Shown here: in pieces, positions 2,725 through 12,204 of the stretch
Layout: each line of letters starts with the position of its first letter
Position numbering within the stretch: the stretch's first letter is position 1
DNA from: a bacterium
GTDB lineage: Bacteria > UBP6 > UBA1177
DNA length: 39,720 nt
Reading direction: 5' to 3'
NCBI GenBank assembly: GCA_017645765.1
Contig: JAGCNV010000105.1
Span: 1-39,720, forward strand
The notes under the pieces: model-generated
Databases searched by the model: none
What the model saw: only the letters and a program-made list of their open reading frames with translations
Told to the model about the DNA's origin: nothing
Program-made: the position numbers and the translations under genes

Positions 2725-3096
2725 TTACTTCGGTCTCTTAGCGCCGTATTTCGAACGGCTCTGTTTCCTGTTATTGACACCTGACGTATCGTTCGTGCCT
2801 CTGACGATGTGATAACGAACGCCGGGGAGGTCTTTGACCCTGCCGCCTCTGACGAGAACAACGCTGTGTTCCTGAAGGTTGTGACCTTCGCCGGGGATGT
2901 AGCAGGTAACTTCGAAACCGCTTGTCAGACGGACTCTGGCAACCTTTCTGAGAGCTGAATTAGGCTTTTTCGGGGTTGTGGTGTAAACACGTACACAAAC
3001 ACCCTTTCTCTGGGGACATGATACAAGTGCCGGGCACTTGCTTTTGTTCTGCTGGTCCTTACGACCTTTTCTTATTAACTGATTAATGGTCGGCAT
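2725..3096 (-). CDS. rpsL: 30S ribosomal protein S12
   Basis: S12 sits at the decoding centre of the 30S subunit and controls accuracy. I chose the ATG at 3096, giving 123 residues beginning [13 protein letters not shown], because it has an AGGAG site and matches the family N-terminus. An upstream in-frame ATG at 3195 would add 33 unrelated residues and would place the start inside the promoter. The loop [13 protein letters not shown] (Lys43) and [10 protein letters not shown] (Lys87) carry the residues usual in streptomycin-sensitive ribosomes. Three cysteines (21, 27, 34) occur near the N-terminus; related S12 proteins often have some of these. First gene of the str operon. Confidence 0.97.
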
Positions 3097-3140
3097 TTCT
3101 AAACTACTCCTAATATTACCATTACCAAAAAACCGCAGGC

Positions 3141-3168
3141 ATTGTATGGAGGGAAGTACCATTGTCAA
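3141..3168 (-). promoter_or_regulatory. Sigma-70-type promoter of the str operon
   Basis: On the minus strand a perfect -35 box TTGACA (3163-3168) is followed after 16 nt by TACAAT (3141-3146), one mismatch from the consensus. Transcription would start near 3134 and give a leader of about 38 nt before rpsL. The distance and the strength suit a ribosomal protein operon. Inferred from sequence only. Confidence 0.75.
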
Positions 3169-3314
3169 AGATTTGACGATTTTTTGCCGTAACACAATGA
3201 TTTCACTGATATTTTTCGGAAGGCAAGTTTTTTTGTTTTTTTCTTTTTTCTCATTTTTCGTTAATTTTCACCTTCACAAAAAATCCAATTAAATGAGGAC
3301 AAAACAAGAAATTT

Positions 3315-3755: not shown

Positions 3756-4664
3756 CTATTCAGCCGTTTTCTTTTTTCTGCCTCTTTTTTTAGGTTCTTC
3801 GGCAACAGGACTTTCCGCATTTTCGAAAAACGAACCCTGGACTTCTTCCGCAGGAGCAGCTTTCGGTTCTTCCTTTTTCGTTTCCGGTTTTACTTCGGGA
3901 ACAATTTCCGGCTCGGTCGCTTTTTCGATTTTCACTTCCGCCGGTTCGACGACGTCTTTGATTTTTACGACTTTGTAGGTTTTCTGCGGAACGAGAACTT
4001 TTTCCGGAATTATCGCGCTGTCGCCGTTCGACGCATTTTCGAACCACGATTCGAAATCGACAAGTCCCTCCCCCGAAACAACGCGGCCGCTGTATTTTTC
4101 CTTGAACGCCGAAATCGTCTCTTCAAGTTTTTCCTTCTCTTCGCCGAGCGGAACAAGTTCCGACACGATCCTGACCTCGTAGTTTCCGGGATAAACGCGG
4201 TCGACTTTGTCGATATCGACTTCACCAAGATCGTTTTTGCCGACAACTTCAGTCGTGCCGTCAAGATACATCACGAAATAAACCATCTCTTTCCTCCATC
4301 TCAAAGATTTTATGAAATTCTTTCCCGTTCTTTCACCGAAAACTCCGCAGATCACGTTGTATTTGCAAAAAGTCGAATACGCATTGCAGTCCGACGACGC
4401 CTGTTTTTTCTTCGGGCAGTAGAGCTGCGCCAGTTTTCTTCTTTTGGCAAGCGATTTATTGAGTTCGATTATTTTCATATTCAGCGGACTTTCACGGAGT
4501 TCGATCCACTCAGGGAAAAAAGCCGTAAAAAGCTGCGGCTTCACAGAACAAAACTCCCGCGGACACGAAATACACTGCGAAAGATGGACTTTCGTTCCCT
4601 GCATAAGCCCGAAAAATCCGGGTTCTTCACAAACCGTCCAGCTGCTGTTCAGAAAATTCGCCAT
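3756..4664 (-). CDS. Uncharacterised eight-cysteine protein with acidic linker and AT-hook-like basic tail
   Basis: I do not recognise this family. Read from the ATG at 4664 it has 302 residues. Residues 1-126 hold eight cysteines (12, 31, 34, 39, 83, 93, 100, 106), including CISCPREFC, which could bind zinc or an iron-sulfur cluster. Residues 127-240 are a mixed alpha/beta region. Residues 240-290 are rich in Glu, Pro, Lys and Ala, and the end, PKKRGRKKK, resembles an AT-hook or other nucleic-acid-binding tail. An internal ATG at 4286 (codon 127) has a strong GGAGG site and would give a 176-residue product without the cysteines. A promoter at 4692-4719, about 20 nt before the long start, favours the 302-residue form, but both may be made. 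It is directly followed by rimI. Confidence 0.7.
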   Translation of the reverse strand: MANFLNSSWTVCEEPGFFGLMQGTKVHLSQCISCPREFCSVKPQLFTAFFPEWIELRESPLNMKIIELNKSLAKRRKLAQLYCPKKKQASSDCNAYSTFCKYNVICGVFGERTGKNFIKSLRWRKEMVYFVMYLDGTTEVVGKNDLGEVDIDKVDRVYPGNYEVRIVSELVPLGEEKEKLEETISAFKEKYSGRVVSGEGLVDFESWFENASNGDSAIIPEKVLVPQKTYKVVKIKDVVEPAEVKIEKATEPEIVPEVKPETKKEEPKAAPAEEVQGSFFENAESPVAEEPKKRGRKKKTAE

Positions 4665-11096: not shown

Positions 11097-11945
11097 TTAC
11101 TTCCTCAAATTGTTGATCCTTTCTTCAAGACCCGGATGTGTCGAAAAGATTTTGAAAAGAAAATTCGATTTCGGCGAATAAATGAACATGTGCGCCGTCG
11201 AAGCCGAAATTGCGCTTCCATGCTGCGCCTCTACGATCCTGTCCTCTGCACCAGAAATCCTGCAAAGAGCGTTGACAAGGTATTCGCCGCTTCCCATCAG
11301 CTTTCTGCTGTAGTCATCAGCCATATATTCGCGTGAACGGCTTATCGCAGCCTGAATCAGCATCGCGGCAACCGGAGAAAGAAGTGCCACGAAAATCCAG
11401 CCTATTGCGTTTCCGTCACGCCTGTCGCTTCCGCTGCCGCCTAAAATACCGAACCAGCGCGTCATCGAAGCGATCCACATGATAGCCGAAGCCATCGACG
11501 CAACTATCGTCTGAATAAGAATATCGTAATGTTTGACGTGTCCGAGTTCGTGTGCGATTACAGCCGCGACTTCATCGTGCGGAAGAGCATCCAGCAGCCC
11601 CTGTGTAACTGCAACGACCGCGTGTTTCGGGTTTCTGCCGGTCGCAAAAGCGTTTGGTTCCGCAATCGGAATAACGTAAAGTTTCGGAATTACAGGAAGT
11701 TCAGCTGCGTTTGCCAATTTGGTAAGAGCCTCGAAAAGCCATGCATGCTCCTGAGCATCCGCAGGCTGTGCGTGGTAAGCCGCAAGAACGATCTTGTCAC
11801 TGAAAAAGTAGCTGAAAAAGTTGAAAGCAAGCGAAATTATGAAAAAAATGAACGCGCCGTCAGGCCCGCCGGTCATATAACCGACAAAAACCAGAAAAAC
11901 CGACATCAGAACAATCAAAAATCCGCTTTTGATAATGTTGAGCAT
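11097..11945 (-). CDS. htpX: HtpX-type membrane zinc metalloprotease (M48)
   Basis: HtpX is an inner-membrane protease that helps clear damaged membrane proteins under envelope stress. The start at 11945 (MLNIIKSGFLIV) has a strong AGGAGG site and gives 282 residues, close to the usual 280-295. An in-frame ATG at 12146 would add 67 residues encoded largely by the repeat element and is rejected. Two N-terminal membrane segments lie at about 5-24 and 28-50. The zinc site HELGH is at 132-136, with a second-ligand glutamate in SREYMADD (Glu206), and two further hydrophobic segments lie between them. The gene stands between two direct repeat copies. No convincing promoter was found within the upstream repeat. 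Confidence 0.95.
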   Translation of the reverse strand: MLNIIKSGFLIVLMSVFLVFVGYMTGGPDGAFIFFIISLAFNFFSYFFSDKIVLAAYHAQPADAQEHAWLFEALTKLANAAELPVIPKLYVIPIAEPNAFATGRNPKHAVVAVTQGLLDALPHDEVAAVIAHELGHVKHYDILIQTIVASMASAIMWIASMTRWFGILGGSGSDRRDGNAIGWIFVALLSPVAAMLIQAAISRSREYMADDYSRKLMGSGEYLVNALCRISGAEDRIVEAQHGSAISASTAHMFIYSPKSNFLFKIFSTHPGLEERINNLRK

Positions 11946-11970
11946 ATAAACCTCCTTTTTCGCCGCAGCC

Positions 11971-12067
11971 ATTTTTTGTCGATATTTCGTAATTTCGTAA
12001 TTTCGAAATTTCGACATTTCGAGGCGGCGAATCGAAATAATCGAAAAAAACCTCCGCCGCTCCCTAA
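11971..12067 (+). repeat. Direct repeat, copy 2, in the leader of htpX
   Basis: A ~97-bp copy of the element at 10990-11080, same orientation, beginning 26 nt upstream of the htpX start codon. The two copies lie 981 nt apart and enclose only htpX. It includes a tract of alternating TTTCGAAAT and TTTCGTAAT palindromes. Confidence 0.85.
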
Positions 12068-12110
12068 AATCCTTAGACACCCTAGATTCCCTAGACTCCC
12101 TAAACTCCTT
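12061..12110. repeat. CCCTAAA-type degenerate tandem array
   Basis: About five imperfect units (CTCCCTAAA, ACCCTAGAT, TCCCTAGAC and similar) continue from direct repeat copy 2 toward tilS. Confidence 0.6.
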
Positions 12111-12204
12111 ATATTTCCCGAAAGTGAAAAAACAACCCGAAACCACTAAATAATTGCCTTTTTCGCCGCAAATATTAAAAATTCACGGTTTTTGGGAGTA
12201 AAAA

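Follow-up and report, generated by a model that had tools for sequence, protein, structure and literature searches.

The reverse strand of the window, by which we mean the whole 39,720-nucleotide stretch analysed, carries an open reading frame of 302 amino acids that runs from an ATG at 4664 to a stop codon at 3756-3758. Its product begins with an eight-cysteine domain (residues 1-126, 4664-4287), continues with a core predicted to fold (residues 127-232, 4286-3969) and ends in a variable, probably disordered linker and lysine-rich tail (residues 233-302, 3968-3759). At the border of the first two segments, the Shine-Dalgarno sequence GGAGG (4297-4293) precedes an in-frame ATG (Met127, 4286-4284), from which a cysteine-free frame of 176 residues, comprising core and tail (4286-3756), can be read. 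A first-pass annotation of the same DNA had described both the eight cysteines in residues 1-126, including CISCPREFC, and the internal ATG behind GGAGG; both are present as described, and a cysteine-domain reading frame with an internal start site is a genuine observation. Upstream of the first start, a consensus scan found the candidate main promoter TTGAAA-16-TAAACT (4719-4692), and inside the gene a possible, tentative second one, GTGAAA-18-TAAAAT (4336-4307).

Family distribution and gene neighbourhood

The long protein gave nothing over a cut-off in Pfam, NCBIfam, PHROGs or PADLOC, and a Pfam scan of all 21 members, the full alignment and the core found no family over cut-off either. The earlier description of the protein as unrecognised thus agrees with the lack of an accepted Pfam or NCBIfam match. 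The nearest likeness is to PF13771 (zf-HC5HC2H, PHD-like zinc-binding), a weak match over residues 50-109 (E 0.025) whose 15.2 bits lie under the curated cut-off of 29.1; 11 of the 21 members match this model at E up to 1, the best at 0.0068, and we take the similarity to be one of cysteine spacing. Searches of PDB sequences with profiles gave best E values of 0.54 for the whole protein, 0.13 for the core and 0.68 for the cysteine domain, which we read as chance. We found no report evidently on this gene in literature searches that were not aimed at its sequence.

The protein occurs, at one copy per genome, in 21 of 28 genomes of the candidate phylum UBP6, whose metabolism has been discussed for methanogenic bioprocesses in at least one report (PMC7382037). 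It is present in all 15 genomes of the genus, in 2 of 4 other members of the family and in 4 of 6 genomes from two further families of the order; none of the three genomes of a fourth family of the phylum has it, and such absences may reflect assembly gaps, some genomes being incomplete. The records of the relatives carry mostly ruminant sample names, three of them bear the label UBP6, which is the ground for assigning the phylum, and the genome that includes the window contig measures 2.65 Mb. Both halves were also searched separately, as the first-pass annotation had proposed. A profile of the core (residues 127-232) matched 21 of 386 genomes, the same 21 UBP6 genomes, with no match in the other 358 genomes searched. 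The cysteine-domain profile (residues 1-126) returned these 21 genomes and three weak short hits outside the phylum, which we attribute to chance (E 0.0028-0.030 over 20-44 profile positions, one with stop codons). Among the 386 genomes the two profiles accordingly found no relative consisting of one half only, and none that begins at the equivalent of the 4286 ATG without the cysteine region. None of 39 candidate stretches from viral contigs encodes a relative. The only other hit in the window's own genome, a weak one (E 0.015), was rejected as low-complexity similarity to a lysine-rich linker: it lies in a 236-residue frame (L022, 1405-2112) with an apparent membrane anchor and a linker rich in lysine, proline and glutamate. 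We are thus dealing with a family without an accepted library match, whose copies found here all lie in one candidate phylum. The 21 sequences compared below are the window's own and those of 20 loci from a scan of genome contigs, which used exact peptide patterns and can miss distant relatives.

A GNAT acetyltransferase gene directly follows in the window, with rpsL-rpsG-fusA behind it. The first-pass annotation had proposed a shared operon with rimI; the name rimI is that reader's, and the match obtained for the neighbouring gene is to GNAT. The GNAT gene follows in all 15 loci of the genus, window included, and rpsL in 13, the two loci without it (L044 and L056) ending soon after the GNAT gene; L054 and L055 have the GNAT gene nearby as well. 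Around the gene in L057-L060 no neighbour known from the window was found, the downstream genes there being others, and rpsL, rpsG and fusA were found in none of the six loci outside the genus (L054, L055, L057-L060). The link to ribosomes that had been drawn from the adjacent str operon is not borne out, since the str genes lie downstream only within the genus; we reject a ribosomal role based on synteny, and the neighbourhood, not being general, carries little information on function. In the same six loci, the gene's divergent neighbour encodes a conserved protein that, on inspection of its N terminus, is a putative lipoprotein (beginning ...CNSYDVEGKP in L054 and L060) and without Pfam match in the three complete frames scanned. 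Most loci of the genus have at that place a DUF11-containing protein of about 1000 amino acids.

Cysteine domain, core and tail

The eight cysteines (C12, C31, C34, C39, C83, C93, C100 and C106) are arranged as C-x18-C-x2-C-x4-C followed by C-x9-C-x6-C-x5-C. A check of their conservation had been called for, and all eight proved conserved: seven are invariant in all 21 sequences, and C12 is found in each of the 20 whose N terminus is on the contig. Silent codons vary in this domain (Cys31, for instance, is TGT in 10 sequences and TGC in 11) while the residues are kept, which indicates that the domain is translated and under selection at the protein level. On this comparison, the full-length product is also real, and we reject a gene starting only at 4286. 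The two groups of four conserved cysteines most likely correspond to two metal sites, and metal binding by the domain, as a zinc or iron-sulfur protein, is plausible from its conserved cysteines.

In a model of the full-length protein, the prediction is reliable for about residues 120-228 (blocks near 80), poor for the cysteine domain and below pLDDT 50 over residues 228-302. Modelled alone with AlphaFold2, residues 127-232 reach a mean pLDDT of 85.5 and a pTM of 0.65, with the predicted secondary-structure order b-b-a-b-a-b-b-a-b; the same segment aligns without gaps over 106 columns in the 21 sequences. The core is thus predicted to be an independent folding domain. The first strand spans residues 115-133 in the full-length model, so that a form starting at Met127 would have a shorter first strand, a feature of the model that would count against the short form as a free unit. 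Foldseek searches with both models found no match at E at or below 0.001. VIA-align gave Z scores up to 3.4 for the long model and 3.7 for the core model; the ACT-like folds among its matches, VC0802 (Z 3.4) and aspartate kinase domains (Z 2.6-3.1) for the long model and VC0802 (Z 2.6) for the core alone, lie within the noise of the tool.

The AT-hook is a short basic motif with a GRP core. The tail does contain the PKKRGRKKK that had been likened to it, but KRGRKKK is without the proline of that core, and the 14 of 21 relatives that have it belong to a single genus; the lysine-rich tails of the other clades differ from it. For both reasons we reject the AT-hook label. Any binding to nucleic acid is inferred from the basic tail only.

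The probable internal start site

The arrangement GGAGG-N6-ATG is identical in all 21 relatives, down to 42-45% protein identity. These form five clades: A, with 13 members of the genus including the window; B, two divergent members of the same genus (L056, L061); C, two from the same family (L054, L055); D, three from another family with a GC content of 59-61% (L057-L059); and E, one from a third family (L060). Fourfold sites match between clades in 20-40% of cases, against 19-29% expected at saturation, so that, at silent sites, the clades are for the most part almost independent of one another; comparisons of A with B and of A with D retain some excess of matches.

The codon of Arg124, which completes GGAGG, is AGG in all 21 sequences. 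This choice is kept over loci ranging from about 40 to 61% GC, including those of clade D, where AGG makes up 1-3% of arginine codons. Multiplied over four groups (A and B pooled, C, D and E), the AGG frequencies yield 7.6e-5. Synonymous shuffles produce GGAGG in about 13%, 19%, 28%, 3% and 7.5% of cases for clades A to E, or about 1.5e-5 when multiplied over the five. All 127 between-clade pairs agree in the codon of Arg124, where 48.8 agreements would be expected; the column thereby tops the excess of codon identity among 84 conserved columns of the gene, followed by Ile118; the top five 9-codon windows of codon identity all fall within residues 118-132. Met127 is the sole invariant column among the four internal, non-initiator methionine columns. 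We also noted single codons in all 21 relatives at Ile118 (ATA), in the stretch at window 4307-4313 (reverse strand), and at Cys100 (TGC). It is not obvious why a start site would need either, and for Cys100 we offer no explanation.

Several controls put the Arg124 codon in perspective. Of 30 other Trp-Arg pairs in the same loci, drawn from at most 13 distinct contexts, one uses AGG. In fusA and ppdK taken together, none of 56 invariant arginine columns is all-AGG and only one has a single codon of any kind, while none of 37 invariant isoleucine columns is all-ATA. For fusA we used 16 sequences from 26 genomes matched, and for ppdK 15 of 25, without clade E; partial or split copies, genomes with only a paralogue and genomes without the cysteine gene were excluded. 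Expression of both genes is probably high, and they may disfavour AGG, which makes the AGG control a generous one. In the same material, ppdK is split over two matches in each of two genomes (at G009:C77:7953-10854 and at G001:C4:1158-3972), one with internal stops; these may be assembly errors. Service of GGAGG to another reading frame was rejected, as inspection by eye located no other-frame start codon just behind it. The proposal of a strong internal start at 4286 is accordingly borne out by codon-level conservation beyond the controls, and selection on the internal start at the nucleotide level is our best reading of these sequences. In enterobacteria, conserved Shine-Dalgarno sequences and start codons inside genes are the subject of an earlier assessment (PMC11005335).

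The strength of the site points in the same direction. Its pairing energy with the anti-Shine-Dalgarno sequence is -9.3 in all 21 sequences, the lowest of 206 internal in-frame ATGs in 21 reading frames of the window (the next reaching -7.3), a set that omits the rpsL and M48 peptidase frames, in which Met34 (-6.8) and Met68 (-12.5) were taken as true starts; Met68, if counted as internal, would outscore Met127. In a list of 24 starts the Met127 site ranks seventh. Window reading frames of at least 100 amino acids hold 259 internal in-frame ATGs, of which 3 stand behind a correctly placed GGAGG or AGGAG, namely Met127 and these two. Both other frames look over-extended, because their Pfam matches begin later, at residues 51 and 132. 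The rpsL frame (2728-3195, reverse strand) likely starts at residue 34 with MPTINQL, which we take to be the usual S12 start, behind AGGAG; the M48 frame (11100-12146, reverse strand), listed from a GTG, likely starts at the ATG at residue 68, where AAGGAGG forms the strongest site of the start list.

In 19 of 20 loci the pairing at Met127 is stronger than that at the first start. The first start has an energy of -2.4 in the window and of -2.2 to -5.7 in 18 of the 19 other loci with upstream sequence, that of L059 being ambiguous. The exception is L060, where the first start is the stronger (-11.8), which counts against a two-product reading. In 20 of 21 sequences the openness of the mRNA around Met127 exceeds the median of the gene. 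Set against the mean of synonymous shuffles, it is higher in 9 of 10 sequences, reaches P below 0.05 in only four of the ten and is lower in L054.

The scan for promoters found 6 promoter-like sites against 1.5 expected. The one at 4719-4692 is likely the main promoter: inspection by eye shows a similar pattern, TTGAA with TAAACT or TAGACT, ahead of the gene in every clade but D. A transcript from the internal site would begin near 4300 and carry a leader of some 14 bases that includes GGAGG. Its -10-like hexamer (4312-4307) is TAAAAT in all 13 clade A sequences and L055, TAAGAT in L054 and L056, TACGAT in L057-L059, TAAGGT in L061 and TAAGAG in L060; one of the first three forms is thus found in 19 of the 21 sequences. 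In 12 of the 13 sequences of clade A it is the top-ranking hexamer of the gene; in the other clades it is weaker, and in L060 poor. Once the -35 element is counted in, the site comes first in only 6 of the 21 sequences. These tests were post hoc and used assumed weights. An internal promoter is suggestive on this evidence, and low RNA structure alone could account for the AT-rich stretch.

One gene, two predicted products

We think it likely that the gene has two products read in one frame, a long form of 302 amino acids with the cysteine domain and a predicted short form of 176. The long form would combine a cysteine domain with two metal sites, a folded core of about 105 residues and a disordered lysine-rich tail. 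Ribosomes would also start at Met127, behind the conserved GGAGG, and produce core and tail, perhaps in excess, given the weak Shine-Dalgarno sequence of the first start in most relatives. The long form may use its metal domain and basic tail on nucleic acid. The short form may pair or compete with it through the shared core, the ratio of the two setting activity; this last step is suggested by the known cases of McrB-S, Spa33-C and RpnS. Pfam, Foldseek and VIA-align gave no family or fold match in favour of the proposed function.

The internal promoter, if real, would allow a complete nested gene, in which the DNA of residues 117-127 would encode a segment of the long protein and at the same time act as a promoter and supply both a short leader free of structure and a strong ribosome site. 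The main product would in that case be the short protein, made from its own transcript, while the long form, with its weak start, would regulate the same complex through its metal domain. We hold this fuller version to be possible but doubtful; if true, it would amount to an order-wide two-product system in a candidate phylum.

Other explanations dispense with the second protein. GGAGG could serve as a pause that lets the cysteine domain fold or load metal before the core emerges. Its place at the border between two domains would suit this, as would the rare codons (CGA, AGG) near the site in clade D. A pause, however, could do without an ATG six bases on, whereas all 21 sequences keep both Met127 and the spacing, and the window's two other internal ATGs with such sequences look like true starts of over-extended frames; we regard a pause as unlikely. 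It is quite unlikely, too, that only the long protein is made and that the Arg124 codon is conserved by chance or codon context. Such an account draws on the shuffles for clades A, B and C, where GGAGG arises in 13-28% of cases and is unusual only over all clades, and on a control of about 13 distinct other Trp-Arg contexts; against it stand the near saturation of silent sites between most clades, the joint value for the five clades and the rank of Arg124 as the most codon-conserved of the 84 columns. Finally, the stretch might be mainly a promoter or RNA element for the downstream GNAT gene and str operon, with the Shine-Dalgarno sequence as a by-product. The promoter-like match that ends at 4307, the first rank of the -10-like hexamer in nearly all of clade A and the invariant ATA of Ile118 all fit that idea. 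The stretch is nevertheless kept in L057-L060, where neither the GNAT gene nor the str operon was found downstream, L060 is without the last T of the hexamer, and the -10 tests carry the weaknesses given above, which together make it very improbable.

A codon choice kept across such a range of GC points to a hidden second protein that annotation with one start per gene would miss. If the two-product reading is confirmed, an invariant rare codon that completes a Shine-Dalgarno sequence before an invariant methionine would provide a signature for nested genes, of use in uncultured phyla, where ribosome profiling is hard.

Known internal-start systems offer three points of comparison. In E. coli mcrB, as reported in PMC3874153, an in-frame internal start gives McrB-S, which is without the N-terminal part and can interfere with McrB-L. 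The gene described here would likewise yield an N-terminally shortened form from an in-frame internal start; unlike its predicted products, McrB is a GTP-driven restriction protein, and no family match links the proteins. In the rpn genes, RpnS, the C-terminal product of an internal start, is described as regulating (blocking) full-length RpnL (PMC10327210). A C-terminal product is predicted here as well, but RpnL is a nuclease and RpnS a small variable tail, whereas the core shared by our two predicted forms is the most conserved part of the protein. In Shigella, an internal start within the gene for the type III protein Spa33 leads, according to PMC8211105, to a C-terminal form, which binds full-length Spa33 in a two-to-one ratio. 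Our predicted short form would be a C-terminal product of the same origin, in a different setting and in a protein for which no sequence or fold match to Spa33 was found.
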